Source: Cafeteria roenbergensis (taxonomy: Eukaryota; Sar; Bigyra; Bicosoecida; Cafeteriaceae). From it: DNA of 64,000 bases. The stretch lies in NCBI GenBank assembly GCA_008330645.1, contig VLTN01000011.1:434001-498000 (forward strand), given 5' to 3'. The notes under the pieces were generated by a model. The model ran no database searches, was not told where the DNA came from, and saw only the letters and a list, made by a program, of their open reading frames with translations. Made by a program: the position numbers and the translations under genes. Shown here one piece after another: positions 5,748-61,830 of the stretch. The stretch's first letter is position 1. Every line of letters starts with the position of its first letter.

Positions 5748-6132
5748 ATCTGTCGGGACAACAAGAACCTCTAGCCCCTTGCCTGCCACTTGCACAGCCA
5801 CGCGCAGCCGCTGTCGGGAGCTTGCTGCAGCCATGGATCCTAGAAGCGCGCCTCAGCGGCACCGAAGGCCGGCTTGGTGGCACCGGGGACTGGTCGATGC
5901 AGCAGGGCGCCCGGGATGCGCCGCGTGAGTGCAAGTCGCCAGGGCAGCAGCCGGTTGAGCAACTCGGATTTGCGCGTTTGGCAGAGCCGCGCCGCAGCTT
6001 GCAGGATTGTTTAGCTGTGCTGCGACTGCCGGGCTTGCGGGGTTAGACGCGGGAACGGAGCGGCCAGGAATCCCCGGTTGGGGGCGAGCTGGAGGAGGGA
6101 AAAGTGTTGCTGCGTCCGAGAGCGCGCTGGCG
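5748..6132. other. intergenic, 385 bp
   Basis: Lies between two minus-strand genes, so it should contain the promoter of the VWA/U-box/E2 gene and the 3' end of the DOT1-like gene. No coding pattern, repeat or recognisable promoter motif is visible. Confidence 0.4.
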
Positions 6133-7176: not shown

Positions 7177-7402
7177 CCTGAGTGCCTTCACGCGAGAGCG
7201 ACCAGGCGCGGCAAAAATCACCAGGCTTTTGTGCCGTGCCGAGCGTGAGCTGGCGCTGTGGGCGCGAGGACAGCGGCTGACGCGTCGACTGGAGACGAAC
7301 AAGCAGAGCGGTCGCGATTCAAGCAGGACACGCGCGGACTGACGCGCCCCGCTCGCGGAAACAGACACGCCATCAACAAACAACCCGACCGGAACCGCGC
7401 GA

Positions 7403-11294: not shown

Positions 11295-11789
11295 TGCCGT
11301 CGGGCCCAGACTCCAGCAGGCTTCGAGTCCGCTGCGCGGAGCCAACCTCGGCGCCCAGCCGCGCTTCCCTCCTCCCGGCGCTGCCCGTCAGTCCTGTGTG
11401 TGTGAGCGGCCTTTGCGTGCGTGGATGCGTGCCGAGGCGTGCTGCCTCCAAGCTCTGCCGTTACTGGCCAAGGCGTTTCTGGCGACCGCGCGGCATCCAG
11501 CGATTGCTCTGGAGCGGGCCTCGCTTGCTGCGTGCTGCGCTTCAGGTGTGTGTCATACCGCCGTGTGGGCCAGGCTCCCAGTTGCTGGCTTGGGCAATCA
11601 CGCGGATGGGTGAAGGCAAGCTCGGCAACCGTGGCTGCGAGCGGCTGACTCGCCAAGCCGCAGCGTCGCGTTCCCCCCCCGGCACTGGGCTGCCCAAAGG
11701 CAGCCCAGGCGGGGCACCACGCTGCGGGCATAGCGGGCGCCGCCCGGAAACAGCCGAGTGCGCAGCGGCCGTGCGCACACGAGAGAGCC
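11295..11789. other. intergenic, 495 bp
   Basis: Between the stop of the giant gene and the start of the TPR gene, both minus strand. It should hold the giant gene's 3' end and the TPR promoter. The frame of the giant gene stays open across it by chance, but that translation looks non-protein-like (Cys/Arg/Pro/His-rich, no motif), so I leave it unannotated. Confidence 0.5.
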
Positions 11790-14700
11790 TCAGAAGAAGT
11801 CAGCCTGCGCGCGAAACAAGGGACGAGGAGACCAGCAGAGGCAGTGGGGCGCGGGCGACCATGCGATGGGATTCGGCGCAAGCACAGCGCACTCTCCTCC
11901 GCGGCTTGCCGGCATGGCGCGGCCAAGAGGCTCGCGGCGCTCACCATGAGAGTGCTCTTGATGTCCTCGGACACGGCCTTCACGAACTCGTCCACGTCGG
12001 CAGTGGGGTCAGAGTGCAGCTTGAGGCGAGTCAGCTTGAAGGCCCCGGGAGCGGACGTGTCCTTGTCGTTGTACGCGCCCTCGAACTCCGTCATCATCTT
12101 TGACAGGTCGGAGCTGAGGTCGGTGATCATCACGCGCACGTTGTCCTTCTTGAACTGCCTCAGCTGCTCGCGAGGGTCGTCGCCTCCGGGGTCGCCGTCG
12201 GGGTGGCTGCGGGACACGCACGGAGGGAGGGAGGGGGGCACGGCGCAGTTCGGGAGGGCTGGCGATCGGCGCGATGCTCGCGCCTGGCGACGATGCTCGC
12301 GGAAAAGTCGATGCTCGCGGAAAAGTCGCGTGGGGCAAGCGTCACCGCAAGCACCGCGCGGGGACACGTGCAAGCGGCGCGGGCAGCGCAAACTCACCTG
12401 TCGCTCCAGCTGTGGAAGTCGCGGCCGTGGCAAGGCGCATCGAGAATGAGGATGAGGAACTTCGCCTTGGCCTGCCAGTTGAGGCGGAAGGACTGGCGGA
12501 AGGCGCCGCAGATGTCCTCGGGCCCGTCGCCACCACCAGAGGCGTGCTGGGCGTTCACCTTGGAGCACACCGCCTCGGTGTTCTCCGTGAAGTCGATGAA
12601 GTCGATCTGGTCCGGCGTGGTGCCGCCAGACGAGTCGTAATCCTGCGAGCACCACGATGGCGCCGGGGGGGGGGAACAGAGGAGGAAGAACGGGAGGAGG
12701 AGCAGGGGGGGCAAAGATAGGTGGATGCGGGAGCGGCGGGCCTTGCAACAAAGGGATAAGGGCAGCGGGAGCACAACGAGCGGCAGGGCATCGGCGCGGC
12801 GGCGGGAGCTGGGGTTGGCGCAGCACAGGCGCCACGGCGGGCAACAGCGGGACCAGCAAGCAGCGCCGCGCAGGCAGCGAGAGGCCGCTGTGCTCGGCAC
12901 GGCGCGTGCCTATGAAGCGCGGGCCACGCGGCCACCTCACCTTGTACGAGATGAACGCCGTGCGGAGCTTGGTGGACTTGGACTTTTTGGAGAGGAACTC
13001 CTTCACGGCCGCGGTGATTCGCGTGATGTGCTCCTGGCCAGCGCGGATCCAGCTGCCCATGGAGCCGGTCGTGTCCATCACAAAGAGGAGGTCCACGGCC
13101 ATGGACCCGCCGCCGCTCTCGGAGGCGCCGTCGCCGGTCTTGACGAACATGGACGTGTCGCCGTCGAGCTGCTCGGCGAGGTTGGTGAACAGGTCGCTGC
13201 GACGGTCGAAGACGTCGTCCATGGTAGTGGACGCCTCGCCAGCCTTGACGGCGGCGGCGGCCTCCACCATCAGGGCGGCCTCCATGCTGGCGCCTCGGCG
13301 GTCCTCGGCGACGCCAGAGCCCTCCCCGGCGCCGGAGGCGCCACCGGAGCGGCCGCTGGCCCAGGCGAGGAGGGCCTGTGGCATGAGGTTGGGCTGGTCC
13401 ACGGCGAGCCAGTTCTGGAAGGCCGTGGGCAGGCCGGAGCCGGCCGTGCCGGTGCCCACACCCATGGCGATCACGTCGACGCCGGAGTCGGCGGCCGCCT
13501 GCAGCGTGAAGGGCAGGCGCGAGGGGCGGGCGGTGTAGCCGTCGGTGAAGACGAACATCTTGGAGGGGCCGCGCGCGGAGGAGGCCTGGAGCAAGCCCAT
13601 GCCGACGGCGATGGCGTCCGCGTCGAGCGACGCGGACTCGGAGAAGCCCTTCTTCGGCTGGCAGGCAAGCAGCAGGCGGTAGACGGCGCGCGCGTCGAGC
13701 GGCAGCCCGTCGGGCTTGACCAGCTCCACGCTGTCGCCAAAGGCCAGGATGGTGGTGTTGGTGTCCAGGCCGACGTTCTTGATGGCCGCCAGGAACGCAA
13801 ACACGGCGTAGGCGGACATGCGCGCGGCGCCGCCCATCATGGAGGCGGAGCGGTCGAAGGCCACGCAGAGCTTGTACTCGCGGCGCGGGCCGGCGAGGGG
13901 CCGCTGGTAGATCTTCTTGTAGGAGCCGTTGGTGAGCAGGAAGCGGATGAGGCCGCGCATGGAGAGGCTCGAGCCGCGCACGTCGGGCTTGCGCCGCGTA
14001 AAGCGGTTCACGGAGAACATGCCTTCGGACAGCGCGTCGGTCAGCAGAGGCACGAGGCGGAGGCCGCCGCTGCCAATGTCGCGGGACTCGAACCGAGCCC
14101 ACTCGGCGGCGGCGGCGTGCACCAGCCGCTCCTCGCGCGCCTCGTCGGGCGTGCCGGCGCCGCCCAGGCGGCCCAGGCGGTCGAACTCCGAGACGGCCTC
14201 CTGCTTCCAGCGCAGCAGGGCGTCGGAGGCGTACTCCACGGGCGGTAGAGACACGCCGGCCTTGGTGAGCTCCTCCAGCTTGGGAATGGACGCGTCGGCG
14301 CGCGCAAAGTCAAAGGCGCGCGGGGCGGACACGCCCGAGGCGGGGTCGTCGCGGATGATGACCGGGGCGGGGGCGCGCATGCTGCGCGGAGCGCGAGCTG
14401 CGCCCTCGCCCTCCGCCTCGTCGCCCTCGGGGCCGTCGTCGCGGTCCTCCTCCGGCCCGGCCATGTCGTCAAAGTCGAGCGACCCGCCGCCGGCCGAGGC
14501 GGCCGAAGCGGCAGCGGCTGCGCCCGCGCCAGAGGCCGCCGACCGGGCGGAGCGACCGCCCACGCGACGGCGGGCGCTGCGGCGCGCGCTGGAGTCTCCC
14601 CCAGCGCCCGACGCAGCAGCGGCGCCGGCGCCGCCCACGACGTCGTCGTCGGGAACTTCGCGGCGGGCGGGCTGAAGCCGGGCGACGAAGTCGCCGTGCG

Positions 14701-17700
14701 CGGACACGCGGAGGGCCTCGGCCTCCGAGGCGGCCTCCGAAGCCGCGGTGCCTGCTGCCGCCGCGATGGCGCCGGCAGTGGCCTTGCGCTCCGAGCTGGC
14801 GGCGTCCTTGACCATGAGCTCGAACTGGCGGCCGACGAGCTTGCACACGCGGGGCACAATGTCGCGCTCCTTTCCGGGCTCGATGGTGGTGATGCTCTTG
14901 TTCTCGCGCGCCTTGCCCGTGGTGCCGCCGGTGAGGAAGTTCATGCCCTCCATGATCTCGTCCCGGTTCTTCTCCGCGAAGCGCTCGAGCAGGGCGAGGA
15001 AGCACATGCGCACGGTGCCGCGCAGGCTCTCGCGCGCCTCGCGCAGCAGCGCCTCGTACTTGGTGCGCTCGTCGCCGCCGGTCTCCACGAAGCCGTCGGA
15101 CAGGATGACGATGGAGCGGGAGACGACCACGCCCGCGGGGAGCGGCCGGGAGCGGTGGAAGCCGTGCTGCACCGCGGCCTGCACGCCGGAGCGCAGGTGC
15201 GTGCCCTCGTCAAAGGTGAAGGCCTCCACGATGAACTCGCCGCGCAGCGGGGTGAGCGGGTCGTCGAGCTGCTTGAGGCGGCGCTGGCTCTTGCCGAAGC
15301 GGATCACGCTGAAGTCAATCTCCAGCCGGCGGAAGACCTCCATGAGCAGGGTGAGCGTCATGCGCACCTGGCGGCCGGCGGCGCCGTCCATCGACCCGGA
15401 GTTGTCCACGAGCAGGCAGAACTCGAAGACGCGGCGGCGGCCAGAAGCGGCGAGCGTCATCATGCGGGCGCGCAGGTCCGCCAGGAGCTGGTTCCGCACC
15501 CGCAGGAAGGAGGGCAGGCGCGTCAGCAGCGCGTACGTGGTCTTGGTAAGCTTGACGTCCGGCTTGAGGCCGAGGCGCGACCACTCCACGTCCGGCCGCA
15601 TCGTCACGGTGGCGTCGCCCGCGGAGCTCTTGAGCTTGCGCATGAAGTCGTCGATCATCTTGGTCTTGGCCGTGGCGTCGCGCATCGCGCGGCGTTCCTC
15701 GGAGCTGATGTCGGCCTTGACCTCGTGGACCACGCCCTCGCCGTCGTCCTTGCTCTCGCCCGGGCGCTCCATCACGAGGTCGCTGAGGCCCTCGCGCTTG
15801 CCCGCGAAGAACCGGGAGAGCAGCCCACCGCCGGCCATGCGGCCCGGCCCGCGGCCGCCAAAGCCCTCGAGACCCTCGAGCCCGTCGTCGCCGCCGTCGC
15901 CGCCGGGGCCACCCTCGGGCTTCTTGGCGCCGCGCTTGGCACCACCGTCGCCGCTCTCGACCACGCGGATGGCCGCGTCGAGCAGGCCTGACGACGCGCC
16001 GATGCCGCCCATTCCCGCGAAGCCGCCCAGTCCGCCGGACAGCAGCGACGGGTCGAAGAACCCTCCGCCGCCGGCCGCGCCACGGTCCTCGGCGTCGTCG
16101 TCGGCGCCCACGTCGTCGATGTCGCCCTCGCCCACGCCGGCAGCGCGGCCGCCGCGGCGCCGTCCGTCGCCGTCGGGGTCGTCGGGACCCTCGAGCCTGT
16201 CGAACTCGTCGTCGTCGTCGCCCCCGCCGCCGTCGCGGCGCCCTGCCACGCCCGTGGCCAGGATTTCCATGTCGTCGTCATCGTCGTCGTCGTCAAAGTC
16301 GTCGCCCATTCCCGGCGCGCGCGCAGCGCGGGATGACTCGTCGGTGACGATGCGGAAGTTGAGGTCGGGGCCCTTGGAGCGCGCGGCAGCGTGGCGCGCA
16401 ACACGCAGCTCCTTGAGCTCGCGCCGCAGGCCGCCCGGGAAGTGCTTGAGCGGCACGCAGGTGAGCGCCTGCGACACGTCGCGAATCTTCTCGTCGAGCC
16501 ACGCCTCCACCGCCACGTACAGGTGCGTGCGCTTGTCGTGCTTGCGCCCACCAGCGCGGAGAACGTCCGCCCAGGCGGTGGCGGGACCGGGCAGCGTGAG
16601 CTCGTGGCTGGGCGCCCGCACGAAGGCCTTGAGGCCGTGCAGGAGGCGCAGCAGCTCCACGGCAGTCATGAGCGCGTGATCGAGACGCAGGGGCCAGCGG
16701 TCCTCCTCCGGCACCCCGGCCGACGGGGCAGCCGCCTCCTCGGGCTCGGGGGCGGGTTCAGCGGCCTCAGGCTCCTCGCGGGCAGCATCGCTGGCCTCGC
16801 CGTCGTCGCCGCCGGTGCCGGCCTCGTCACGAGCAGCGAGCTCGCGGGAGAGGCGGTCACGCAGGGCGATGAGGTGCACAAGCATTTCGTCGCCGCGACG
16901 CAGCGCCTCGAGCTCGCTTCCTGGAGCGCCGTCGCCGTCGCCGTCCGCCGCCACGAAGGACCCGGAGTCACTGTGAGAGTCGGAGTCGGAGTCGTCATCG
17001 TCGGCGTCATCGTCGTCATCGTCACGCACGGCGCCGTCGGCAGGAGCGGGCGCGGGAGCGGGCGCGGTTGCCGGCTCCGGAGCGGGCGATTCCGTCGATG
17101 AGGCAGCGGTGGTCGAGGCGAGGGTGCCCAGCGCACCGCGGATCATGCCGGCGATGGACGAGGTCGCCGAGGGTCCCGACGACGGGACGTCGCCAGCCGC
17201 CGTCACACCGGACGCCGCCTCGCCGGCCCCGCCGGCCTCACCGGCCTCGCCGTCCCCAGTGAGAGCCGGCACGTCTGCGTCCGCAGCGTCACCGTCGGCT
17301 GTGGCACCAGTCGCAGCGAAGGGGTCGGCGGGCAAATCTGCCTCGGGCACCCCGCGGGCGCGCGCCGCTGCCACGATGCGCAAGCGGCTGCGGTGGGCGC
17401 TGGCCAGGTCCTCCTCCGCGCGGGCAAGCATGGCACGGGCGCGGTCAGTAGAGCTGCTGACGAGCGTGCTGATTCCGCTCAGGGCGAGCTCGCGCTCCTC
17501 GGGAGAGCTGCGGGCGAGGAAGGCTGCCATGCTGGCGAGGCCGGAGGAGTCGGCACCGGCCCCAGGTCCAGCTCCTCCGGCTCCGCCGGCCGCGCCGGGT
17601 TCGTCGTCGGGGTCGCCCAGCGAAGGCTCCACCACGAGAAGGCGGCTGGCTGGGTCCGCGAGGGAGTCCTTGTGCCGGTAGTGCTTCTCGGAGCGCCACT

Positions 17701-18275
17701 CAGGAGGGCGCGCCGCCGAAGCGGCGTCCGGGTCCCAGGCAGGGTCGGCGTCCTCGTCGAGCGCCACGTCGCCATGGCACAGGGCCACGGCCTCCAGCAT
17801 GGCCACCGCGTCGGCCGCTGCCAGCGCGATCGCGCCCTCGACCTGGAGCAGGTGCTGCACCTCGAAAGCCTCCAGCGGGGCCCGGCCGCGCGCGTGGCGG
17901 CGAGGCCGACCGGTGGAGCGAAGCAGGCCGAGGCGCAGCAGCTCGCGCCTGGCCGCGTTCTGGGCGCGCGCGCACCGCTGCATCGCCCGCTTGGCAGCGA
18001 GAACGCTCATGCGGCGCTCGTCGGCGTCCACAGAAGTGTCCTTGGCCTCGGCTGCGGCCACGTCGTCGGCGCCGGCTGCTCCACCGTCGGCATCATCGTC
18101 AATGTCGGCATCGTCGTCGTCGCCCCCTGGTGCGGCAAGGCCGTTCGGCGCGTCCGGGCTGAACTTGAACCACGACTCCCACTCGGGCGGGCCAGCCGGC
18201 TCGGCAGCTGCCTCGTCAGCGGCATCGCCGCCGGCTTCGCCCGTGGCGCCGACTGCACCGTCAGCGCGGGCGGCA

Positions 18276-18313
<38 letters not shown>

Positions 18314-21300: not shown

Positions 21301-24300
21301 CGACGTCGTCGAGGGCCGCGTCAGAGGCGGGCGCCCCGGCAGCAGTGGCGGCAGAGGACGCAGCGGAAGCGGCGGCTGCGCCGCCTGGCGCAGGGCGCTC
21401 GAGGCCGTCGGGCGTCTCCACGGGCGCGGATGCGACCATGATGTGCACCAGGCGGGCGAGGCTGCGCACGGAGCCCACGGACGCGCGCGACGAGTCGGCG
21501 ACGACGCGCAGCATGGCGCGCAGTGCCTCGGACGCCTCGCCGCGGCCCGGGAGCAGGCGCATGACCAGGCGGGCCGCGGACGTGGAGTCCGACGCTTGCG
21601 CGCTGGAGAGGTCGCCGTCGAGAGCCGCGATGGCGCGGAGCACCAGCGACCGGCCCTCCTTGGAGAGGCGGCGGCCCTCGGCGTCGGCGCTAGCGGCGGC
21701 GGCATCACCTTCGAGCAGCAGCTGGAGGCCGGCCTGGGCCACAGGCGCCGCCTCGGAAGGCGAGGCCAGAAGCGGCAGAGCAGCAGCGTAGAGCTGGGAG
21801 CCGGCGTGCGCCTGGGCTGCGGTCGAGCAGGAGAGAATCACCATGTCCACGGCGCGGGCCATGGCTTCGGAGACTGCGTCCTCGGCGCTCGGAGCTTCCA
21901 GCGCAGCCGCAGCGAGGCAAGGCGCCAGGTCAGGGCCGCCGCTGGGGTTGCCAAGGGCCGCGGCCACGAGGTCGGTGATGTCGCTCCGGCCGACAGCGGG
22001 AGAGCCCTTCGGCCGGGTCATGGCGCCGAACACCTCGCGCATGATCGCCATGCGGTCCCCGGAGGCGCCCATCGTCGACGCCTTGCGGATCGCCGCGATG
22101 GCCAGGGCGCCACCGCCCACAAGCGCCGCAGCAGAGGCGGCGGCGGCAGCCACGGCGCCGTTCATGAGGGCCTCGTGGCTGGTGCCGGCAGCGTCGAACA
22201 GCGCGAGGGCCAGCATCTCAGCCTCGCGCGGCGCGGGCAGCGAGGGGCAGAAGGTCGAGAGCTGGGGCAGCGGGGGCAGCGGCGCCCTCGGCACGAGGCC
22301 GGGGCCCGAGCGTCCCAGCACGAACGTGCGCTTGGTCTCGTAGTAGCGGAAGAAGGTCGCCCCGGCGGCGAAGGCCATGCGGTCCTCGTTGCTGAGCAGA
22401 GGCACGGCCGCCACCACGGCGCAAGGCTCCTCGTCGTCGTAGGCCGCGCCAGGGTCGGCCCCAGGGTCATCGTCGTCGGCGTCGGCTGCAGCAGCAGCAG
22501 CAGCGCGGCTGCTTGCGGCTGCGGCGGCACCGGCGGAGGACGCAGACGAATCCAAGAGGGCACGCGTCTCGTCGCGGGCCAGCGCCGAGGGCTCGGCAAC
22601 GCGCGCCGCGACCTTGAGGGCGAAGGCGCCCCGGACGCCCTTGGCGACCTCCAGGTGCAGGCCCACGTTGGCGAAGGAGCCGACGGGCACATCCAGGGCG
22701 TCCTCCTCGGACACGGCCCGCGTGAGCAGCGCGCGGCGCACCACACGGCCCGCGGCTCCAAGCGCCTCGGCAGACTCGACGTCGAGCGAGAACACGCTCA
22801 CGGACTCCACTGCCCCGCCGCCGCTGACCTCCTCGCCGCTGATGATGGACCAGCGGGGGGGTGCGCTGGCGGAGATGTCGAGGCTCAGCGGCTCCTTGCC
22901 CACGGTGCCGTCGCGCGCCTGGTCGCGCGTGAGGAGGCAGATGCCCGGGACCGCAACGTCCGGCGCCAGCACTTCGACCTCGAGGTCGGTCTCGAGCGCC
23001 GCGAGGCCGGACAGGTCAGTGTAGAGCACGACCTTGCCGCGGATGGCCCCGAGGTCCGAAGGCGTGATGCGCAGCGGGATGCGGGTGAAGTCGGCAGTGC
23101 GCCTTGCCAGAGGGGCCACCACGAAGGGGCCCTCGGGCACGTGCACGTCGGGGTGGTCGCACTCGATGCGGAGGATGCTGAAGGCCATGCGCCCTTCGTT
23201 GCCGATCGCCACGTTGACCCCTTCGAGCAGAGGCACGCCGTGGGGAGCGCGGAGGGCGCGGCCCTCCTCGGAGGCGGCGTCGAAGCCACGGGCGGCGGCG
23301 CGGTCCACAGTCTCGGCGACCACCGCGCCGCGAGTGACGCTGTCGAGCTTGGGGCGCGCGGTACCGCTGAAGTAGGTGAAGGCCACAATGGCCTCCCGGG
23401 CCTTCACGCCCACGCCGGAGGTGCCCGCCGCGGACGAGGACACGAAGAGGACGAGCTCCTTGGTGTGCTCGCCCTGCACCTTCGTCTCCAGCTTGGGAAG
23501 GCGCACCACGACGTCGGCGGCCTCTCCTGGCGAGAGGCCGAAGTTCTCCGGGGCGATCTCGGCCCCGCGCACCTCAAGGGCCGCGAAGCCGCGGCTGGGG
23601 TTGCGCACCAGGCCGTGGACGTGGCACGGCACGCGGCCGCTGTTGAGCACGCGGCAGCGGAAGGTGAAGGGCGTGCCGGTCTGCACGGAGCCGGCGGACA
23701 CGGCGTCGCGGGCGGGAACCGGCTCGCCGCGGAAGAGCACCTCCACCTCCGGGCGGAAGACCTCTCCGGAGAAGGGCACGGTCATGCGGTCGGTGGGGCT
23801 GAGGTACATGCGGAGCTCGCCCTCAAGCAGGCCGGGCTTGGAGCTGGCGGACATCTTGACGTCCACGACGGTGGCGGAGTGCGGCTTGAGCAGCCACTTG
23901 TAGGCGCCGTCCTTGTGGCGGCCGGTGATGTCCTGGTCGGCGCCCTCCACGCGCACGCCGTGCGACTTCCCCTTGCTGACCACGGGGTCGGCCTTGAGCA
24001 CGAGCTCGGCGCCCGTGCAGTTGTGCACCGTCAGGCTGGTCTCCGTCTCGCCGCCGGTGGCCACGTTGCCGAAGCTCAGGCTGCTGCGGCTCACGCGCAC
24101 GTCGAGGCGGTGCACCTCCGAGCGCACCACGACGTCAAGCGACTTGGCTCCCGCCCCCTTGCCGATATCCAGCCGGTACTTGCGCTCGAACTTGCCCGGC
24201 ACGTCGGCAGCGCACGTGAAGGTGGCGGTGTGGCGGCCGCGAACGTCCACGATGGCAAACGGCGCAGAGCAGCCGAACGGGTTGCGAGTGCGGCGCGCGC

Positions 24301-39300: not shown

Positions 39301-42300
39301 GGGTGAGAGTGACGGACTTTTCGCCTCCGGGAGCGGGCGTGAACGGGGTCACCAGGCACTTGGCGAGCAGGGCTGCGCCCGCCTCGTCCAGCGCGCTGGC
39401 GGTGGCGCTGCTCGACGAGTCGGCGCCTGCGGCAGAGGCGGCGGCAGCCGCTCCCGCGGCAGGCTTGGACGCGGAGCTGCCCGCCTTGACGCCCAGCATC
39501 ATGGCGGGGCGCACGAGGCGCTCCCAGCGGTCCTGGGCCGCCTCGACGTCGCGCGCCGACGAGCCGGGGCGCGCCTTGGCCCAGCGGGCGACGGCCGCCA
39601 CGGTCTCCGTCGCTGCCTCCTCGCGGTCCTGCGGCGAGAGGCGGTCCAGCACGAGCAGCTGGGAGGCGAGGAGCACGGAGGCCGGGACGTCAAACGTTTC
39701 GGTGCCTGCGTCGTCGGCCCCGTTGGCCAGAAGCGCCGACACCAGGCCGCACATCTGAATGAGCCGGCGGACGTCCAGCCGCAGGTTGAAGCGCGTTGGG
39801 TCGGCCATCAGGTGAATGACGTTCATCATGCACGCCAGGGCGTCGGACGCCTGGGAGGCGTCCAGGCCGCGCCCGGGACTGCGCAGGTCCTGGTCGAGCA
39901 CCTCGCGAACCTCGGCCTCCTCGTACCCCGTGGACCAGACCTCGGTGAAGCGGGAGCGGGTCGCGGGGGACAGGCTGATGCGAGTGCGCTCGTCCGCGGC
40001 GTGGACCGTCGCAAAGACCGCAAAGCGGTTCACGAGCTCCACGTCGGTGCGGGGGCGGCTGCGGCGCGGGCCGGCCGCCGAGGCGGCACTTGCCGCCTCG
40101 CCCTCGTCCTCGTCGTCCTCGGACGGGGCGTCCTCCGTCACGGCGAACGTGCGCTCGGTCTCGAGCATGGAGTTGAGTCGCTCCGTCACGGCGGGCGACG
40201 GCAGGTCCAGGTTCTCAAGCAGCACCGGGTGGCCCAGCTTGGCGGCACGGGTGATGGCGCCGTCGTGGAACAAGAACATGGCGCCGGCCGCGGACGACAC
40301 GCCGGGGCCCTGCGACGCGAGGCCGCGGAGCTTGCGCGCGAGCGAGCGGGCCTTGCGCGCCGCCATCTTGAGCGAGTTGTCCACGCTCAGCCCCTTGGCC
40401 TCGAGGGAGGCCAGCACGCGGCCCTCCAGCGTCCGCATCGCCGCGAGCAGGCGCAGCAGCGCCGCCGCGTCGGCACCCTCGGACCAGAAGAGCTGGAGCA
40501 CCATGTCGTCGGGCCCCGCGGCGGCCGCCTTGGACCCGCCGCCCGCCGCCACCTTGGCGTCGAGCGCGGCCTTCTCCTCAGCACGGGCCTTGGCCTTTGC
40601 GGCCTCCTCCTCGGCACGGCGCTCCTTGGCCTGCTGCGCGCGTGCGCGGCGCTCGAGCTCGACCAGGCCGGACATGTCCGGGTCCTCGTCGTCGTCGTCC
40701 TCCTCCTTGTCCTGTGCAGCGGCAGACGGCTCGGATGGGGCGCTGGTGGCGCCCGCGGCAGATGCGGCCGACGCACCGCCTGTGGCCGACGAGGTCTCTG
40801 CGCCGGAGCCCCAGCCGGAGCCCCAGCCGCCGGCACCTGCGCCGCTTGCGGCAGGCGAGGGGGCGCTTCCCCAGCCGGAGGCCTGGGCGCCGGCCGCCCC
40901 GCCGTCGCCGAACCCAGTCGAGTCGCCAAAGCCGCCGCCGACCCACCCGCCTGCCTGCGCGCCTCCGCCGCCGCTTGCAGCGGCAGCGGCAGCTGCTGCA
41001 TCGTTTGTGGGCTGCGCGTTGGGCGCGCTCTGGGCGCCGGCAGAGGGCCTGGGCGCCTTGGTTGCCTTGGGCGCACTCGGGCGGGGGACCACGATGGCGG
41101 CGTCGTCGTCGTCCGCGTCTTCCTGCTCCTGGGCGTGGGCGGCCTCCTCCAGGGCGGCGAGCTGGCGCTTCTCCGCAAGGCGCGTCTTCTCAAGCTCCAC
41201 GCGCTCCTCGAGCTGGTCGCGGAAGGCCGCGAGCGCCTCGGTCAGGGTCTGGATGGGGTCGGCGGAGGCGCTGGTCGTGGCGAGCAGGCCGCCCGCCACG
41301 TCGCGGTCGAGCTGGGCCGCGCGGTCGCGCACCTCCGTCGCGCGGTCGCACAGCATGCGCGCGGCGTCCCGAGGCACCACGGGCATGATCTGGCCGATGA
41401 GGTCCGAGGACTCGGTAACCGTCGTGAGGTGCACCGTCTCCATGTCCGACACCACGAGGCCGTCCAGGGCGCGCTCCTCCGCGTCGCTGTCGGCGCCGCC
41501 CTTCTTGAGGTCGCGGCGGGCGCGCTGGGTCTGGAGCTCGACGACGTCCTCCGGGGTGGTGATCTCGAGGTAGGTCTGCACGAGGAGCGACTTGAAGGCG
41601 GTGGGGCCCACCAGCAGCACGCACTCGCCGTTGGCAACGCACTCGGCGAGCTGCATGAGGTTGCGCCGGAACGAGGGCGGGGCCTTGAGCTCGGCACCGC
41701 CGCGCCCCGCCGCCGCCTTGGCAGCGCGCGCACCCTGCGCCCGGCGGAAGAGCGAGGAGCGGGTGAGCTGGCCGCGGATGGCCAGCATGGTGGTGGCGCC
41801 GTCGGGCGTCACGAAGTGGACCTCCTCGCCGCGCTGCACGATGCGGTTGTCGCGGTCCAGGACCTCGCGGACGGCGCTGCCGGCCTCGCGCAGGGCCACG
41901 GCCTCCTTTGCGCCGGGGCTGATCTTGCCGAAGGCGGTGAGGATGATGCGGGCCAGCGTGGAGCGCTTGGCCTTCTCCCGCAGGCGCGGGCCCAGCAGCG
42001 CGATGCCGGCCGTGTGGTAGTCGTCGCCGCAGCCGTAGAGGCCGGGCATGGACTCGCGGCGGCGCAGCCACTTGATGATCTCGCGCAGGGTGATGCGCGG
42101 CAGCCCGCTGGCAGGCGCGTTGATGCCGACGTAGGCCTCGGCGAACTGAGAGGCGAGCTTGTCGGCCAGCTTGGGGTTGGAGTCCCCGCCAATGTACTTG
42201 GCGAAGGCGCGGCGGATGATGAGCTCAAGCTCCACGGCGGAGAAGTCCGTCACGGCGGCCTGCAGGAAGCGCGTGCGAAGCGACACTGGCAGCTGCTTCC

Positions 42301-45300
42301 TCCCGCCGTACGAGGCGTCGTTCTGCGCCGCGAAGAAGCGGAAGCCGGCCGCGGCCTCGATGACCACGTCGGTGCCCGGCAGGGTGATGGAGCGCCGGCC
42401 CTCGAGCAGCGGCGCCAGCATGTCCAGCACGGCCGGCTCCGCGAGGTTGAACTCGTCGGCGAAGAACCACAGGCCCTCCTCCATGGCGCGCCACAGCGGC
42501 CCCTTGAGCACGCCAAAGGTGGGCACCCCGGCGCCAGCCCCGCCAGTTGCGGCCTCCCCGTCCTCGGCGTCCGCGCCCCCGCCGCTGCTGGTGGGCACGT
42601 ACGTGCCGATGTAGTCCTGCACCGTGGTCGAGTCGGTGTTGATCACGCGCATGAGCTTGCGGCCCGTGCCGCTCGCAGCGTGCTTGTACAGGAACGCGAT
42701 GAGGGCGGTCTTCCCCGTGGCCGCGGGGCCCTCCAGCAGCACGGGGTAGCCGCAGAGGACGCCGAGGGCCGTCAGCTGCGCGAACTCGAAGCGCTCCGGG
42801 GCCTTGACCTTGTCAAGGACGTACTCCGCAGAGCCGACGTGCTTCCCGCCGGTGATGACGGAGATGAAGTCGCCGGTCGCGTCGAACTTGAGCCCCAGCG
42901 TGGACGCCAGCGCGGCGGCCAGGCGGTGACGGATGGAGAGGTCCGCCACGCCCTGCAGCACCACCGACTGGACGGCGGCCGTCAGCGCCCGGCCCGAAAT
43001 GTCCGAGAGCGACGCCGGCGTGCCCGAGGGCGGGTGCGCCAGCTCGAGCTGCGCGAGGCGGTAGAAGGCGTCCGCGGCGCGCACGGAGGTGCGCATGGTC
43101 ATCGACGACGTGGTCGAATCGGCGCCTGCGCTGCCGCCGCTGAGGCGCAGCAGCTCGCTGGAGCCGGGCTCGGCGATGCCGCGGCCAGTGACCAGGTTGC
43201 CGAACACGGCGCTTGCCGCATCGATCATGCCCGCAGCGGCCCCGCCGCTGCCGCGGAGGCCGAGACCAGCGGCCGCAGACATCACGAGGCGCGTCTCCGA
43301 GTTGACGCTGGCCTCGGTGGCCTCGCCGACGGGGTCGTCGCCGATCTCGCCCAGCCACACGATGGTGAAGCGGTTGTAGAGGGCGGGGGACAGCTCCTTC
43401 TCGCGCCGGGGGGTGGGGATTGCCTCGGCGCTCATCGTCGCGAAGAAGCGGTAGCCCTCCCCGGGGCCGCGGCCCACGTCGAGAACCTCGTTGTCGTCCT
43501 TCTCCGAGAGCTGCCACACTGGGTCAGACTCGAGCAGGGGGTTGAGGCGCTCGCTGACCTGGGCCTCGGCCTCCTGCAGGTTGTCGAGAAGCACCCAGTC
43601 GCCGTGGCGCACGCCGCGCGTGACGGGTCCGTCAGCCCACTGGAGCGTCTTGGGCGACACGCTGCCCACGAGGTCCGCAGACGCCGTCTCCCCGGTGACG
43701 CACGCCTGGTGCACCGTCTTGCCCATGAGCGTGGCGAGGGCGAGGATGGCAGCGCTCTTGCCGCAGCCCTCGGGGCCCACGACAAGCACGGGCTGGCCCA
43801 GCTGCACCGCGCGCACCATGAGCTGCATCGCGGCGAGGATGCGCGGCGTCAGGGCGATGGGCGCGGGGGGGAGCACGGAAGCCAGGGTCGAGGGCGTGGT
43901 TCCGGCGCCGAGGCGCGCAGGAGCGCCCAGCGTGGTGCCGAAGGTGCTGTCGAGCTGCTTGAACACGCGTCCCGCCCAGGCGTCGCGCTGGTCCCGCATC
44001 AGCACGCCCATGAGGTCGCGGCCGGCGCGCACCACCGACTCGGGCGTCGCCGCGCGGCAGTCGGCGGAGCCGGTGCCCGCGGCGATGAGGGCGCACCACC
44101 GGCGCACCAGGTCGGCGGGCGACCCGATCACGCTGAGGCCGTGCGCCGACGCGTTGGCAGGATCGGTGAGCATGTTGGCCACGCCCAGCGTCGCCGCTCC
44201 CATCGGCGCCCGGAGGCGCGGCGGCACTGCGTTGGAGGCCATGACTCGCGAAATCTCGGCCTCGTGGCCGCGGGAGCCGGCCGAGTAGCTGCCCACGCGC
44301 AGCTGCAGGACGCCGCCGCGACCCGAGGTGGCGTAGCCAGCGGGGACGAGCATCTCCGCCAGCTTGGGCACGGCGGCCTTGTCGGCCTCGATGGCGTCCA
44401 CCAAGGCGCGCATGACCGCCTCCGAGGGGCCGGCCTTGGCCGCCTCGGCCTCGGCCTTGGCGTGCGCGGCCTCGGCCGCCGCTGCTACCATGGGATCCGC
44501 AGCGACGGGGTCTGCCCCCGGGTTGTCGTCGTCCCCGTCCTCGTCGCCGTCGTCATCGCCGCCGCCGCCCACGACCACCACGGCGCCGTCGGCGGAGGCG
44601 GCTGCCGCCTTCTTGTGCGCCTTCTTGGAGGAGCGGAGGTGCCGCACGACCACGCCGCGCTTGATGATGGCCTTGGCGATGCCGGCCACGCGGGCGGTGC
44701 CTGCGTCCGTGAGCTCGTCGATCTTCGCGGCCACGGCCTTGCGGGAGTCGCGAGTGCGGAAGCGGCTGCCGTAGACGGCCCAGGCCTCGAGCTTGAGGAC
44801 GCGGGCAGCGCTGGCCGAGCCCAGGACTGGCGCGCCTGGGGTGGCGAGCACGCCGCCGAAGCCGTCCACCCACTTGAGAAGCTCGCGCACCGTGGTCTCC
44901 GTGTAGCCGCCGGACTCGGCAAAGTCCGCGCTCTCGGCGAGGGTCTGGAGGGCCTCTGCGATGGAGACCATGAGGTGGGCCTGGGCCGCGACGACCGCTG
45001 CGTGGGGCGCGACGGCGGTGGGGGACGACGGCGTGGACAGGATGCCGTACAGGCGGCGCCACACAATCAGCGAGAGGTCCTCCTTGGGCAGGGGCTTGAA
45101 GTCGATCTTGATGAACCGGGAGAGGAGGGACTCGGACAGCTTGGCGCGCTTGGCCGCGAAGAACCCGGTGGCGGGGTTCTGCGTGGAGAAGAGCCGGAAG
45201 TCCGGGTGCATGCTGAAGACGCGCTCGCGGGCCTCGGAGTTTGCGTCGTCTGCGACGATGAGGCGGCCAGTCTCGACGGCCGTCTCGATGCAGGTCAGCA

Positions 45301-48300
45301 CCTCCTCGGGGGCCAGGTTGAACTCGTCCACCAGGATCCAGTAGCCCTTGGTGAAGGCGGTGGTGAAGGGGCCCTTGACGAACTCGGTGGACACGGTGGC
45401 GGAGCCGCCAGTCTCGGCGCCCGAGGAGGTCTTGATGGAGATGCCGCCGAGGAAGTCCATGATGGTGACGCGCGAGCTCATGTTGAACCGGATGAGCGGG
45501 CGGTTCAGCAGGCGGGCAGTCTCGGTGACCATGGCGGACTTGCCGACGCCCGTCGCGCCCTCGAGCAGCATGGGGAGGCCAGCCATGACGTTGTCCAGGA
45601 TCTTGGAGATGTTCTGCTCCGTGGTGGGGGTGCGAATGATGCCCTGCGACGCGGGCTTGCGCCGCGGGATGAAGGAGCGCGCCTCGATGTCGTCGGCAGG
45701 GCCGTAGCGCCCGGCGGGCTTGAAGGCGAAGAGGCGGCTGCCGAGCTGCACCTCCGTGGCGGCGGCGTGCGCCATGCTCGCCGGGGCGGCCATGGCCGCG
45801 GCCTCGGCCGCGCCAGACACAAGCGGGGGCACCGCCGTGTGCGGCGACAGGCCGAGCGTGTCGGCCACGCTGACGGGGCCCTTGGGCGTGTCCTCGTCGT
45901 CCTCGGCCTCGTCGCCGCCGGCGCCTGCGGCCTTGTCCTCATCGGCGTCGTCTCCCGCGGCTGCCGGCTCGGCGTCCGCGTCGGCGTCGGCCTTTGCCGC
46001 CCTGGACCGGCGGGACTTGGAGCCGGCCTTGCGGGCCGCGCGCTTGGCCTCGCGCTCGGCCTTGCGCTCGGCAAGCTTGAGGGCGCGAGCCTGGCGGGCG
46101 GCGGAGCGCTTGGTGCGGCGCCCGACGTCGCGCGTCTTGGCAGTGCGCTCGCGCGAGGCGCCCGGGAGGCCCTCGGGGATGCGGATCCCCTTGCGGGTGC
46201 GGTGGTCGTGCATGAGGAACCCGGTGAGGACCGCGTCCTCCGTGGCAGCAAGCAGCGAGGCGGTGCCTGCCACGCCTCCGAAGCCCTCGCCCGAGCCCGA
46301 CGCCATGGCCGTGGCGTCGCAGCGCACCGCCAGCATGTTCATGTAGTCGAAGAGCCGGGAGAAGTCGGAGTTGGCGGGGCGCATCGAGTCGACTGAGGCG
46401 TTGCCCGGGGCGCCGGATCCGCTGCCGTCCGCGCCGCGCTGCACGAGGGAGAAGAGCTTCACGCTGTCCTGCATGCGCTCCATGGCCTCCGCTGCAGAGA
46501 GAGACTTGGCCGGGTCGAGTCCCGAGGCGGCGTCCAGCAGCGACTCGTCCGACTCGCCCCCGCGCGCGGTGAACAGCGCAACGGCCGCGGGGCAAAAGGT
46601 CTCGAGGAGCAGCGCCTGGTCCGAGCCCCGCATGCGCAGCAGGAGCGCGGTGAGGGCCGTGAGGGGCTGGCCCAGCTGGCGGGCGGCGAGCGACGAGGTC
46701 TTGGCCGCGGCGCGCGTGGCCGCCTCCCCGGCGCCCGGGGCGGCGGGCGCGAGCCCGATGGCCAGCGAGCGCAGGAGCAGCGGAAGGTAGCGGCCAAAGT
46801 ACTTGCCCAGCACGCGGCGCGCCGTCTTGCGCGAGATCATGAGGCGCGTGAGCTGCACCAGGCGGGAGGGGAGGAAGCGCGGGGACACGCGCGCCGTCCG
46901 CGCGGTGTCGGGCAGGTCAGTGGTGGAGTCCTGGCGGCCGAGGCCGGGGGGCGCGTCGAGCCCCTCAGAGGACGCCGCGCCGAGGCTGCGCTCCGCCGAC
47001 GCGGCGGCCGCGAGCGACGAGCGGGCCTCCTCCTCGTCCTCGGCGGAGGCGATGACGCCGTACACACGGGCCGTGGAGGCCGTGACCGAGTCGGCCACGA
47101 GGTTGAGGAGGCGCTTCGACAGCGCCGAAGGGGCGGCGCCGGCGCTCATGGCCTCGCCCAGGGCAGGCGGCACGCTGTCGCTGCGGGATGCGGCGAGCAC
47201 GATTGCGTCCTCCGCGTCAACGATGGACACAAGGTGCGAGCAGAGCAGCGCAAAGTCTCCCGAGAACACCTCGTAGCTCAGGCAGTTGCGCACCACTCCC
47301 TCCATCAGGTCGAAGCGAGAGGACAGCATCTGAGCGACGCGGTCGCGAGGCTCGATGGTGCCGCTCGCCGCCGCGGCGGAAGGGGCGTCGCCCCCGGCCG
47401 CCGCGGCCGCGCGTGCCTCGCGCACGCGCACGTGGACGTCCGGCGTGCGCGAGTTCAGGAGCCGGACCACGACCTTGGTCACGAAGCGCTCGGCCGTGGC
47501 GTCGGCGTCGGCGTGGCCGAAGACGTGCATGCCGGCGTTCGAGCCGTCCATGGCCGTGAGCTCCTCGCGCACCCCCGCTGAGAAGGAGCGGAAGAGGCCG
47601 GGCGCAGCGGACAGCGACTCTCCAGAGTCCTGCGCGGCCAGGCCCGTCTCTGCGGCGTCGGCGCCGGAGCTCGCGCGGGAGCGGCCAGCGCGGTGCACGG
47701 CGTCGAAGACGGGGTCGTCACGCAGGGTCGGCACCATCGCGACGAGGGCGGCGTCCGGGTCGAAGGCGCCGGGGGCGTTCTGGAGGCCGTGCACCAGCAG
47801 GGACATGACCGGGGCCTGGCAGCCCACGCGCCGGATGGCCTGGACCAGCACGCGCGACCGCGAGAGCGGGTCAGCGCGAGCCGCACGGCGCTCCGCGGCG
47901 CGCCGTGCCGTGTAGGCGGCGTCCGCGGAGTCCTCGCGCTGCAGGCCCGGGCCCAGCGCGAGGGACGTCGAGGCCGGGGCGTCGCTGCGGACGGCGCCGC
48001 TGCGTGCCTGGCCGATGGCCATGGCTGCCTCCTCGTCCTCGTCGGTGTCGTAGTCGAACTCGTCCTCGTCCTCGCTGTCCTCCTCGCTCTCGCTGTCGCT
48101 GTCGTCGGCGTCGCGATCGCCCACGCGCCCGCCAGCGCGGCGCTTCCCGACGTCGATGGTGCCCTCGAAGAGCAGCTGCTGCGCGTCGCCCAGCTCGTTC
48201 TGCAGGCCGGCAACCCAGATGGCCAGGGCGCGGCCGTCGTCGTCGCCGGCGGAGGAGCCGTCCGCCGAGGCCAGGGAGCCCAGCAGGTTGAGGCAGTCGG

Positions 48301-50481
48301 TCATCTCCTGGGGGGAGCGGGACGACGACAGCCTGGCGAGCGCCTGGTGCACGTAGTCCTGCCCGCAGGACGGGGTGCGCAGCGTCAGGCGCAGGAGCTG
48401 CATGCACGCGGCGGCGAACGTGCCTGGCAGCGGGGCCGACGCGGCCTTGATGGCGTGCGAGACGAGCAGGCCGGCGTCGAGCGTGCGGAGGAAGCGCACC
48501 GCAGCGGGGGCGTTGGGGCCGTCGGCCGATGCCGTGGTGACGTCGGCGACGGCCGCGCTGCTGCCGGAGAGGGCCGCGCGCACGATGCGGAGGACCAGGG
48601 CCGCGAAGGAGGCGCCCGGGCTGTCCGCCGCAGGCCCGCCTGCCGTCGCTCCTGCGGCGGGTGCCGGGCCTGCGGCAGCGATGGAGGCGGCGGGGCCCGC
48701 CTGGCCGGGCTCGCCGAAGGAGTCGGGGGCGCCGCCGGCACCGGCGGCGCCGGGGTGCCCGGCGAAGCGCGACGCGGTGTTGAACAGAAGCGAGAGCACG
48801 GCCGAGAGGCGCCGGGGGGGGTCGGGCTGATCGGCGCCCGCTGCCGCAGCGGCGATGGCGTCGACCGCCGCAGGGTCGCTGAGGAAGGCGGGGGCGCGAG
48901 GTGCCGCCGACCCTGCCGCGCTGGCGGCGCGGGCGGAGGTGGCGAGCGCCTCGAAGGCGATGTCCATGACAGTGACGGCGTCGTCCCCCGTGAGCAGGAA
49001 GGCGTACCCTCCCGCGGAGGCGGCAGCCGGCGCGAGGGCAGAGAAGAGGGCAGACGCGAGCGCGTCGTAGCCGAGGTGGGCGGCGCTGGAGGAGTCGGCG
49101 CCGGGGATGCGCACTGCTGCGGCGCGCGGCAGAGCGGCGAGGATGAAGTGGTTCCACTGCTCGCGCAGCGCGGCCACCTCGACGGGGGCGGTGAACCGGA
49201 GGGCGTGGCGGGCGAGGTTGGCGCGCAGGGCGCCGGACACCTGCTCGGCGATGCGCGCGGCGGTGGGGCGGCTGCACTTGGCGGCGAGCTCGCGCACGAG
49301 GAGGAAGGGGAAGCGCCAGGGCGCCGGGGCGGCCTCCCCCGGCAGGGCGTCGAGCTGCAGGCGGGGCAGGACGCGAGAGCCGGCGCGGACCGACTCGGAG
49401 CGGCCGTCGGACCAGCGCACCCCCACGGCGGCGAGGGACCCGGGGACGGACTCCACGGCCGTGGCGAAGGAGCCAGCCGAGGACTTGGTCGGGGAGATGA
49501 ACAAGGGCTGCGTGGCGAACTCCACCAGCCCCGCCAGCGCCGGAGACTGCGCCAGGGCCTCCGCCGCAAAGGCGGGGTTGCACTCCTCGGGGGACGAGGC
49601 CGTGCGGGACTCGCGGACCACGACCTGCAGGAACCGGAGGGCCAGCTCGGCGTCTGCGCGCGTCCGGGACCGCGACGCCAGCGCCGCGATGCGCGCCGGG
49701 GTGACCATGCCCGGGCGCGGGGCGCGGCGGAACTTGTCCGCGGACAAGGACACGCCGCCGCGCGGGGGGGAGGCGAGCCACTCGCTCCAGGTGGTGGGCT
49801 CAATCTCCACCGCCATGGAGCCCACGAGGAGCATCACGGCCCGGGAGCAAAGCTCGGGCCGCGCCTCCGCGTCCAGGTAGGCGAGGAAGAGGCGGAGGAA
49901 CTCGTTGCACGCCGATCTGCGGACGCGTCAGGATGACGTGGAGGCTCGGCGGGGGCTGGTTCTCGCTGGCGGACCGGAAATTGTCAGAGCTGGACTGTGC
50001 CTCGCACAGCCCGGGGCGCGTGCCGGCGCGCTTGCGCGGGGAGCCCCTCCCGGCCACCGCGCGCAAATGCAAGGCAGCGACCTGCTGGGGCAGTCTGCGC
50101 GCGCATGGCACGCCAAAAGGGGGCGGCAGGCGGCGGCAAGCGGCCGGGCAATGCCAAGGATCCGCCACGCCCGTCCCGCTGCCGCGCTCGCCGGCGCAGC
50201 GGCTGCGACGCAGCAGGCCCACGCCCGAAGCTCAGGCTTGTTGGCGGACCGCACCGCGCCGGGCGCACTCACCCAGCGAACAGAGTCGCGCCCTCGGTCA
50301 CGACGACCAGCCAAAAGACCTTGTCGAGAACAGGAATCCGCGCTGCACTTTCCGAGGTGAGCCCCTCGACGATTTCAGCGAGCTCTCGCAGGACTGGCAC
50401 CCACGCGTCGGGCCGTGCGGTGCGAGAGGCGCGGGCGGCCCCGATCGACTTGAGCGCCGCAATGGCGCGGTTCTCGTCCAT
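11790..50481 (-). CDS. giant midasin-like AAA+/Ig-like/VWA protein (12,568 aa)
   Basis: Five exons: 50481-50273, 49916-12941, 12642-12398, 12206-11945 and 11804-11790. Introns are 356, 298, 191 and 140 nt, all GT-AG with GTGAG donors. Phases are 2, 0, 2 and 0; every join keeps frame and the sum is a whole number of codons. Exon 1 starts MDENRAIAAL; the protein ends STLMADFF. Order: helical N-terminus (1-1490); six AAA+ modules (about 1490-4480); long linker; possible C2-like sandwich (about 7866-8052); Ig-like block (8560-9070); acidic belts (about 11,030-11,290); VWA domains with MIDAS Asp at 11574, 12091 and 12351. Midasin (MDN1/Rea1) has six AAA+, linker, D/E-rich stretch and one MIDAS in about 5000 residues and strips assembly factors from pre-60S ribosomes. 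The shared plan suggests an ATP-driven remodeller with VWA substrate hooks, but substrate and location are unknown. Stop-free introns inside the 37-kb exon cannot be excluded. Confidence 0.85.
11945..13095 (-). other. VWA domain 3 (vwkA-type), split by two introns
   Basis: VDLLFVMDTTGSMGSWI with D12351, then SYK | DYDSSGG across the 298-nt intron, FIDFTENTEAV, GGGDGPEDICGAF, FLILILDAPCHG, and WSD | SHPDGDPGGDDP across the 191-nt intron. The DTTGSM, DGPED, DAPCHG and HPxGDP motifs in this order are those of the VWA in Dictyostelium vwkA and related alpha-kinase proteins. No alpha-kinase domain follows; the protein ends after STLMADFF. Confidence 0.88.
12291..12326. repeat. 18-bp unit, two perfect copies, in an intron
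   Basis: Two identical 18-bp units (cgatgctcgcggaaaagt) lie head to tail inside the third intron of the giant gene. A partial copy of the first half sits just before them at about 12272. Confidence 0.85.
13340..13890 (-). other. VWA domain 2
   Basis: YKLCVAFDRSASMMGG with D12091 gives DxSxS. TTILAFGDSVELV and KMFVFTDGYTARPS supply the later strands. The usual DG loop is present and the metal site looks intact. Confidence 0.85.
14850..15430 (-). other. VWA domain 1 (midasin-type MIDAS)
   Basis: FEFCLLVDNSGSMDG gives a complete DxSxS MIDAS with D11574, followed by MTLTLLMEVFRRLEIDFSVI, FDEGTHLRSG (the T-position loop) and SIVILSDGFVETGG. This is the domain that corresponds in place to the single MIDAS domain of midasin, which binds Ubl-like domains of its substrates. 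Confidence 0.9.
16265..17040 (-). other. acidic low-complexity belt before the VWA domains
   Basis: Residues about 11,030-11,290 hold two Asp-rich tracts, one with alternating DSDSHSDS and one with eight consecutive Asp in DDFDDDDDDDDMEI. They sit between the linker and the first VWA, the same place as the D/E-rich region of midasin. Confidence 0.8.
18279..18329. repeat. glycine-codon triplet repeat
   Basis: A (GCC)n run passes into (ACC)n on the plus strand, encoding about seventeen consecutive glycines on the minus strand within the linker of the giant protein. The switch of third base part-way suggests it is an old run with two expansion phases. Confidence 0.85.
19600..20350 (-). other. 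folded helical region of unknown type in the giant protein
   Basis: Residues about 9926-10,176 stand out from the Ala/Gly-rich linker by rich, non-repetitive composition with many aromatic residues (CKQTVNITAYTFESLAG, YKSSYKPLEKRVAVTVATY, TTTYYYPAMWVLKNAAAMA). It is probably a globular helical domain. I do not recognise a family. Confidence 0.45.
22930..24450 (-). other. ASH/HYDIN-like Ig-fold block in the giant protein
   Basis: Residues about 8560-9070. At least three beta-sandwich repeats are visible: LQIVNNTTTPLQVRFIDV, then SSLSFGNVATGGETETS with LTVHNCTGAELVLKADP, then RCRVLNSGRVPCHV, then VAIGNEGRMAFSILRIE. The pattern S-L-x-F-G-x-V, an N-x-G/T turn and a later L-x-P-G/H strand is that of ASPM-SPD2-Hydin (ASH) and MSP-like Ig folds, which occur in ciliary and centrosomal proteins. 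None is a known part of midasin. Confidence 0.7.
25351..25404. repeat. 18-bp coding minisatellite, three copies
   Basis: Three near-identical 18-bp units (gcgcaggggcggggccgg, the last with one change) encode a Pro-Ala repeat (APAPGP) on the minus strand, in a disordered linker of the giant protein next to a charged helical segment. Confidence 0.85.
36688..45658 (-). other. six tandem AAA+ modules of the giant protein
   Basis: Walker A lysines fall at residues 1529 (GATGVGKS), 2123 (GPEGCGKS), 2472 (GPAATGKT), 2845 (GPTAFKS), 3683 (GPPGIGKT) and 4175 (GETASGKT). Walker B/sensor strands include VDEFNLAPEEVL (D1600), FADEFNLAEPAVL (D2557), LLDEVNLAPPEVLDQL (D3748) and LLDNVNNAPPEVLERL. The DE-N-LAP form and the following F-ATxN sensor strand are characteristic of the midasin/dynein AAA+ branch. 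Modules are 350-840 residues apart. The fourth has a shortened, probably inactive P-loop and an insertion of about 450 residues. Confidence 0.92.
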
Positions 50482-60100: not shown

Positions 60101-60304
60101 ATTGCGCTGACCGCGCTCGCCGCCTGCCTGCTCGTGTCTGCGCTGGGCTGCTACTGCTCGCGCGCGTGCCGCCGCCGCTGCTGCTGCTGCTGCTGCTGCC
60201 CCTGCTACATGGGATGCAGGCACTACGCGTGCCTCAAGGCCGAAGATGCGGAGTCCGACTGTGCTGGCGGCGCGCCGGCGCCGGCCAGCGCACCACAGCG
60301 GTGA
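57153..60304 (+). CDS. membrane-anchored type-B carboxylesterase (968 aa)
   Basis: Two exons, 57153-57507 and 57753-60304. The 245-nt intron has donor GTGAGT and acceptor CTTCGCAG, phase 1. Joining gives ENCLTLSVW, the counterpart of the family's EDCLYLNVW. A signal peptide (MRALALALGAAVVAAASP) starts at the second in-frame initiation site, the first being GTG. The oxyanion loop is FLHGGAFMLGS. The catalytic triad appears complete: Ser236 in GSSAG, Glu494 in QRSEGTLF and His741 in FHGSEVG. An Ala/Glu-rich insertion (about 550-700) makes it longer than the usual 530-600 residues. A single transmembrane helix at about 901-925 is followed by a short Cys/Arg-rich cytoplasmic tail with seven consecutive cysteines. 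It is probably a type I surface or endomembrane esterase; its natural ester is unknown. Confidence 0.9.
60179..60199. repeat. (TGC)7 encoding seven cysteines
   Basis: A perfect triplet run in the last 40 codons of the carboxylesterase gene, just after the transmembrane helix. It encodes the Cys7 core of the tail (CRRRCCCCCCCPCYMGC). Confidence 0.95.

Positions 60305-61796: not shown

Positions 61797-61830
<34 letters not shown>

Follow-up and report, generated by a model that had tools for sequence, protein, structure and literature searches.

A 12,568-residue protein of Cafeteria roenbergensis with six AAA+ modules and three VWA domains, probably a diverged relative of midasin

The 64,000-base stretch of Cafeteria roenbergensis DNA analysed here (the window; GC content 72%) carries on its minus strand a gene for a predicted protein of 12,568 residues. 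Its design recalls midasin, a motor that removes assembly factors from maturing ribosomes and takes UBL-domain factors off pre-60S particles. We asked whether this gene is genuine and, if so, whether its product is an ordinary midasin, a relative of midasin with another role or an assembly of similar parts that arose independently. Our analysis suggests that the protein, strongly diverged, probably belongs to the midasin side of the dynein-midasin AAA+ clade and is most likely an MDN1 paralogue with a ring-and-linker pulling mechanism. Given its length, over double that of midasin, and its divergent sequence, it is probably a motor in its own right with a different task.

The five-exon joining put forward in the original prediction, with its 12,568 residues, GT-AG introns and matched phases, was rebuilt exactly as claimed (Table 1). 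All four introns begin with GTGAG and end with CAG, and their phases match. Exon 2 lies within a single stop-free frame of the minus strand that runs from 49927 to 11192 (12,912 codons), and at the base composition of the window the chance of a given stretch that long being free of stops is about e^-210. Codon usage was then scored in overlapping fifty-codon windows, with the remaining two minus-strand frames as the reference and the score trained on this gene itself. None of the 1,252 windows of the coding sequence scored below zero, and the four introns were negative in all three frames. GC content at codon positions 1, 2 and 3 of the gene was 0.74, 0.55 and 0.91. The overall GC of 72% and the small number of short introns would fit Cafeteria, for which about 70% GC and 1.67-1.89 introns per gene are given (PMC6972860). 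The frame is thus no chance opening, as had been proposed, given the value of e^-210 and the unbroken coding signal. In introns 2, 3 and 4, at least one frame is free of stops, so the open frame alone does not exclude hidden introns; since no window fell below zero, however, nothing points to a hidden intron of roughly 150 nt or longer, although smaller ones are possible. The locus is one intact, continuous eukaryotic gene. Long stop-free antisense frames lie opposite it on the plus strand, at 20108-31939 (3,943 aa) and 37241-46396 (3,051 aa), and accompany the rarity of three codons in the gene (TTA 0, CTA 2 and TCA 13 of 12,000 codons).

Table 1. Features of the gene and of its predicted product. 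Positions are those of the window; residue numbers refer to the spliced protein of 12,568 residues.
Feature	Positions	Strand	Residues	Description
Whole gene	11790..50481	minus		five exons, 12,568 codons plus stop, 37,707 nt spliced
Exon 1	50273..50481	minus		ATG start at 50481
Intron 1	49917..50272	minus		356 nt, GTGAGT...CAG
Exon 2	12941..49916	minus		36,976 nt, stop-free; most of the N-terminal region, six AAA modules, linker, VWA1, VWA2 and start of VWA3
Intron 2	12643..12940	minus		298 nt, within VWA3
Exon 3	12398..12642	minus		middle of VWA3
Intron 3	12207..12397	minus		191 nt
Exon 4	11945..12206	minus		end of VWA3
Intron 4	11805..11944	minus		140 nt
Exon 5	11790..11804	minus		final four residues ADFF plus stop
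N-terminal region	45659..50481 (intron 1 included)	minus	1-1489	
A1	45053..45640	minus	1496-1691	Walker A GATGVGKS, Walker B WILVDEFN; followed by AAA_lid_7
A2	43334..43858	minus	2090-2264	Walker A GPEGCGKS, Walker B degenerate, WVLLDNLQ
A3	42203..42805	minus	2441-2641	Walker A GPAATGKT, Walker B WFFADEFN
A4	39896..41686	minus	2814-3410	both Walker motifs lost: A GPTAFKS, B PVLLENLD
A5	38588..39178	minus	3650-3846	Walker A GPPGIGKT, Walker B WLLLDEVN
A6	36656..37702	minus	4142-4490	Walker A GETASGKT, Walker B WVLLDNVN
Possible Ig/ASH-like beta region	22736..24448	minus	8560-9130	weak evidence
Eight-aspartate run	16259..16294	minus	from 11278	acidic tract ahead of the VWAs
VWA1 core	14978..15439	minus	11563-11716	MIDAS motif DNSGS, midasin type
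VWA2 and preceding segment	13352..14011	minus	12039-12258	MIDAS motif DRSAS, midasin type
VWA3	11793..13105 (introns 2-4 inside)	minus	12341-12568	DTTGS, PF25106 type

Could so long a gene nevertheless be an artefact of annotation or assembly, with at least two genes merged as one or an array grown by misassembly? The gene is known here from DNA alone and, as noted above, stops do not reveal its introns. Such an artefact would have to be squared with a coding signal in every window and with the unbroken frame of 36,976 nt. A repeat search gave 19 tandem repeats, the longest spanning 69 bases, and two families of direct repeats whose copies were 61-71% identical to the reference copy; no long, near-identical direct repeat was found in the DNA. 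Pairwise identity among the six AAA modules of the gene was 25-40%. Because the modules differ to this extent and no such repeat is present, we see no sign of the assembly-caused expansion that the original prediction had itself raised, and an artefact of either kind seems barely credible.

Other open frames of the window gave Pfam matches above cut-off. One minus-strand frame (299-5770) joins a U-box (24.3 bits), a VWA (29.0 bits) and a ubiquitin-conjugating domain (93.9 bits) in a single product, which would be an E2/E3 fusion of an unusual kind that also carries a VWA. The minus strand also encodes DOT1 (6136-7563), TPR (9502-10464) and nucleoside phosphorylase (PNP_UDP_1, 51126-52007) matches, and the plus strand carboxylesterase (57512-60301) and HAT1 N-terminus (60111-63299) matches. 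The 734 codons of a further minus-strand frame (52703-54904) gave beta-helix matches that were all sub-threshold (NosD 15.1 bits, cut-off 23.6).

We then examined the domains of the predicted protein. The profile search proposed along with the original claim of six AAA+ modules bore it out: all six module fragments matched Pfam AAA_5 above its cut-off of 22 (64.3, 68.3, 50.6, 32.4, 74.9 and 75.7 bits from A1 to A6). The midasin lid AAA_lid_7 (cut-off 22.7) was found after A1 with 29.2 bits, with sub-threshold matches after A3 (16.1) and A5 (15.4). Residues 1-458 had no Pfam match at E 0.1. A complete Walker A together with a DE-type Walker B occurs in A1, A3 and A5 only; the corresponding pair is DN in A2 and A6 and EN in A4. 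The Walker B of A6, WVLLDNVN, may be compared with the LDNAN of midasin A6. In A5, the midasin motif NRF reads NYF. The arginine aligned with that of NRF is kept in A1, A2, A3, A4 and A6 and replaced by tyrosine in A5; by its place in the alignment, we take it to be the R-finger for the preceding site. With that assignment, the fingers of A2, A4 and A6 would serve the sites of A1, A3 and A5, and the loss in A5 pairs with the dead site of A4. A closed ring in the midasin order would suit this pattern, because the losses at the A4 site hit both of its matching halves, the Walker motifs of A4 and the arginine of A5. In Rea1, the AAA4 site is described as receiving its R-finger from AAA5 (PMC6286127). 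The stretches between Walker A and Walker B span 73, 60, 87, 460, 67 and 228 residues from A1 to A6. The long ones thus fall in the even modules A4 and A6, as do H2-alpha inserts of Rea1, which are placed in AAA2, AAA4 and AAA6 (PMC6286127); the AAA2 insert of Rea1 has no counterpart in A2.

Comparison with solved structures pointed to midasin rather than dynein. For the first third of the protein, the match to yeast midasin reached 322.9 bits and that to S. pombe midasin 298.7 bits, over six stretches each, compared with 44.7 bits for NorQ, 33.9 for CbbQ and at most 32.6 for dynein. Half of A5 gave 269.5 bits with midasin and 38.5 with dynein. No dynein tail or stalk family was present among the Pfam matches listed (the best 25 of 29 in the first third and every match in the rest of the protein). 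These values (322.9 against 32.6 bits) uphold the assignment to the midasin type instead of the dynein type.

Similarity to midasin could also have come about by convergence, if a MoxR-type module array had been built independently and fused to VWAs. Indeed, the modules are about as distant from midasin as is a single-module protein encoded on a viral contig, which scored 287 against yeast A3 (42% identity); the best same-number score of the Cafeteria modules was 267 (38%). As this viral-contig protein outscores every one of them, closeness alone is no proof of midasin descent. The protein (L001, 9602-10972) is of the AAA_5 type, its 42% identity to yeast Mdn1 module 3 extending over 149 positions. 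Scans with yeast AAA3, alone or aligned with that of S. pombe, gave two viral-contig loci and further scans none; searching the viral contigs with A5 found no relative.

Midasin modules were taken from two fungi, yeast and S. pombe, and pieced together from PDB alignments, A1 being partial only. Each of the six modules was matched to both species, which are not independent of each other, giving 12 best matches. Odd or even parity was kept in all 12, and the best match carried the same number in seven (A3, A4 and A5 with either fungus, A6 with S. pombe); in the others, A1 matched A3 or A5, A2 matched A4 twice and A6 matched A2 in yeast. In the module tree against MDN1 that had been suggested as a check, the nine even modules stood on one side of a branch, with support of 78/74, or 84/84 with two viral-contig proteins added. 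This odd/even support is moderate and the branches of the Cafeteria modules are long. The two types are accordingly less firmly read from the sequence than are the gene, its six modules, its three VWAs and their motifs. Forcing the six Cafeteria modules into one clade was rejected (p-AU 0.00027, and 0.0026 with the two viral-contig proteins), as was forcing the twelve midasin modules into one (p-AU 0.0035, viral-contig proteins included). Of two wrong-parity controls, A2 with midasin A3 was rejected (0.0012) and A6 with midasin A5 was not (0.14). Since the module trees rule out a single Cafeteria clade, a separate six-fold amplification is rejected; shared descent of this array and midasin from one six-module array is the simplest reading. 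The tree result, the parity of the best matches, the midasin lid after A1 and the two midasin-type VWAs described below together make convergence quite improbable.

The original prediction of three VWA domains was correct, all three being present; of these, VWA1 and VWA2 are of midasin type and VWA3 is not. Two of the three exceeded a Pfam cut-off, VWA1 with 28.4 bits and VWA3 with 30.5 bits to PF25106 (cut-off 27), a type that we take to resemble the alpha-kinase VWA; VWA2 reached just 15.9 bits. Against the first 119 positions of a MIDAS profile made from three midasin sequences, the probabilities were 93.7% for VWA1, 93.1% for VWA2 and 0.2% for VWA3. A plain sequence search with VWA1 returned integrin alpha-M (E 0.086) and 8ql1 (E 0.096) as its top matches and was not clearly midasin-like. 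The best solved relative of VWA2 was also 8ql1 (22.7 bits, E 0.0007), with S. pombe midasin third (E 0.37), aligned over the segment preceding the MIDAS motif. The PDB names 8ql1 NDE1; its seven other matches with E no higher than 0.01 all bear the name midasin, and we take it to be human MDN1. NCBIfam matches of VWA1 and VWA2 lay far below cut-off and VWA3 had none. Judged by these profiles, VWA1 and VWA2 are of the midasin type, strongly diverged, and VWA3 is of another type. A MIDAS-type VWA near the C-terminus is thereby provided by both VWA1 and VWA2, neither of which is the last domain. A single-sequence model of VWA2 was too poor for use (pLDDT 36.6), and Foldseek with this model gave no match at E 0.001 or better among 267, the best 50 of which included a few integrin-type I-domains and a majority of unrelated folds. 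The 14 PDB matches of the C-terminal part were antibody fragments brought in by a glycine run and were discarded.

We next considered whether the protein is simply the only MDN1 orthologue of the organism, fast-evolving and expanded but with its role in 60S maturation kept, where its UBL clients would be of the Ytm1/Rsa4 type. The order of parts is that of midasin, with an N-terminal part, six AAA modules, a long linker, an acidic tract and a midasin-type VWA near the C-terminus. Moreover, none of the six clades joining same-number Cafeteria and midasin modules was rejected (p-AU 0.20-0.40), although none was present in the best tree. Conservation, on the other hand, fell short of the level of an MDN1 orthologue: same-number modules were 22-42% identical to yeast and S. 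pombe Mdn1, compared with 51-82% between yeast and S. pombe, a control of two fungi only that therefore overstates the likeness to be expected of a protist orthologue. Different modules within yeast midasin were 26-48% identical, a similar level to that of the same-number pairs of Cafeteria and midasin. The MIDAS domains gave a similar contrast, scoring 57-70 (VWA1) and 44-90 (VWA2) against three midasins, compared with 239 for 8ql1 against S. pombe and 225 against yeast (whole control range 225-270). The pattern of active sites also differs from that of Rea1, where AAA2-5 are reported to be functional and AAA1 and AAA6 to be without Walker B (PMC6286127), whereas full motifs are found here in A1, A3 and A5. 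Because divergence in the modules and in the MIDAS-type VWAs goes well beyond that of the controls, we infer that the protein is not an ordinary midasin orthologue, and the sole-orthologue explanation is rather unlikely.

Between the AAA modules and the VWAs, the distance from A6 to the acidic tract is about 6,500 residues; the linker of Rea1 is given as about 1,700 residues long and its D/E-rich region as about 600 (PMC11603028). Scanned as parts of large fragments, the linker showed no family of its own above the Pfam cut-off. The acidic belts of the original prediction are present as acidic stretches, though modest ones: only 3 of 125 hundred-residue windows contain at least 25 D+E. Residues 11001-11400 have 22-23% D+E plus the run of eight aspartates; the tract is acidic without being strongly D/E-rich over 600 residues. 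The Ig-like folds also predicted could not be established, as the Pfam matches were all sub-threshold (Cep192_D4 E 0.01, DUF4232 E 0.055, ASH E 0.094) and a single-sequence model of residues 8661-8930, nearly all beta, was too poor for use (mean pLDDT 39.6). Residues 8560-9130 may be Ig/ASH-like.

For Mdn1/Rea1, the MIDAS domain is described as binding UBL domains via Mg and docking on the ring, with linker remodelling generating force (PMC8837202, PMC11603028). Since the same kinds of parts are present in the Cafeteria protein, a pulling machine is our best guess for its function. By analogy with Rea1/Mdn1, the six modules would close into a single ring within the chain, the sites of A1, A3 and A5 would hydrolyse ATP, and A2, A4 and A6 would be structural or bind nucleotide only. 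The motion of the ring would be passed on to the roughly 6,500-residue linker, and the two midasin-type VWAs, docking on the ring, would grip a client by way of a bound metal ion, such that the use of ATP would pull the client from a larger complex. VWA3 may bind a second client.

No such protein was found described among the titles and abstract openings listed from the open-licence literature on midasin, VWA domains and giant proteins, which included PMC7159879. Within the portions of the articles available, a paper on huge proteins names midasin three times (PMC11573180), midasin does not occur in PMC7203096, and a Blastocystis SNP table has a row for a 'midasin-like protein', given without length or domains (PMC9896827).

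One further reading goes beyond a diverged paralogue and is offered tentatively, as a possibility that we do not favour: the protein could represent, alongside dynein and midasin, a third kind of AAA+ mechanoenzyme with six modules in a single chain. It would then be a paralogue taken out of ribosome assembly, with three alternating active sites, that pulls clients via two midasin-type VWAs and one unrelated VWA. To our knowledge, dynein and midasin are the known AAA+ motors with all six ring modules in one chain. If a third branch were confirmed, its alternating active and inactive ring would amount to a natural experiment on the sites that a ring of this kind requires, and the midasin design would prove adaptable to other clients.

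Among known systems, midasin is the closest to the probable MDN1 paralogue described here. Both have six AAA_5 modules with odd/even types, a lid, a long linker, an acidic tract and a MIDAS-type VWA near the C-terminus; the Cafeteria protein departs from midasin in its large inserts in A4 and A6, with none in A2. As originally proposed, it is also far longer, with 12,568 residues and three VWAs, Rea1 being described as having nearly 5,000 residues and ending in one MIDAS domain (PMC6286127, PMC11603028, PMC8837202). The cytoplasmic dynein heavy chain shares six dynein-related AAA modules in a single chain, but the present protein carries VWAs and its closest relatives are not dyneins. The MoxR-type systems NorQ/NorD, CbbQ and RavA/ViaA resemble it in that an AAA_5-type ATPase works with a VWA, a mechanism described for NorQ and its VWA partner NorD (PMC9976466); these systems consist of separate small subunits that form hexamers, whereas the Cafeteria protein is one chain. 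VWA8 likewise combines AAA and VWA in a single chain and, by its description, is set apart by having two AAA+ domains and one VWA (PMC10743472), compared with six and three here.
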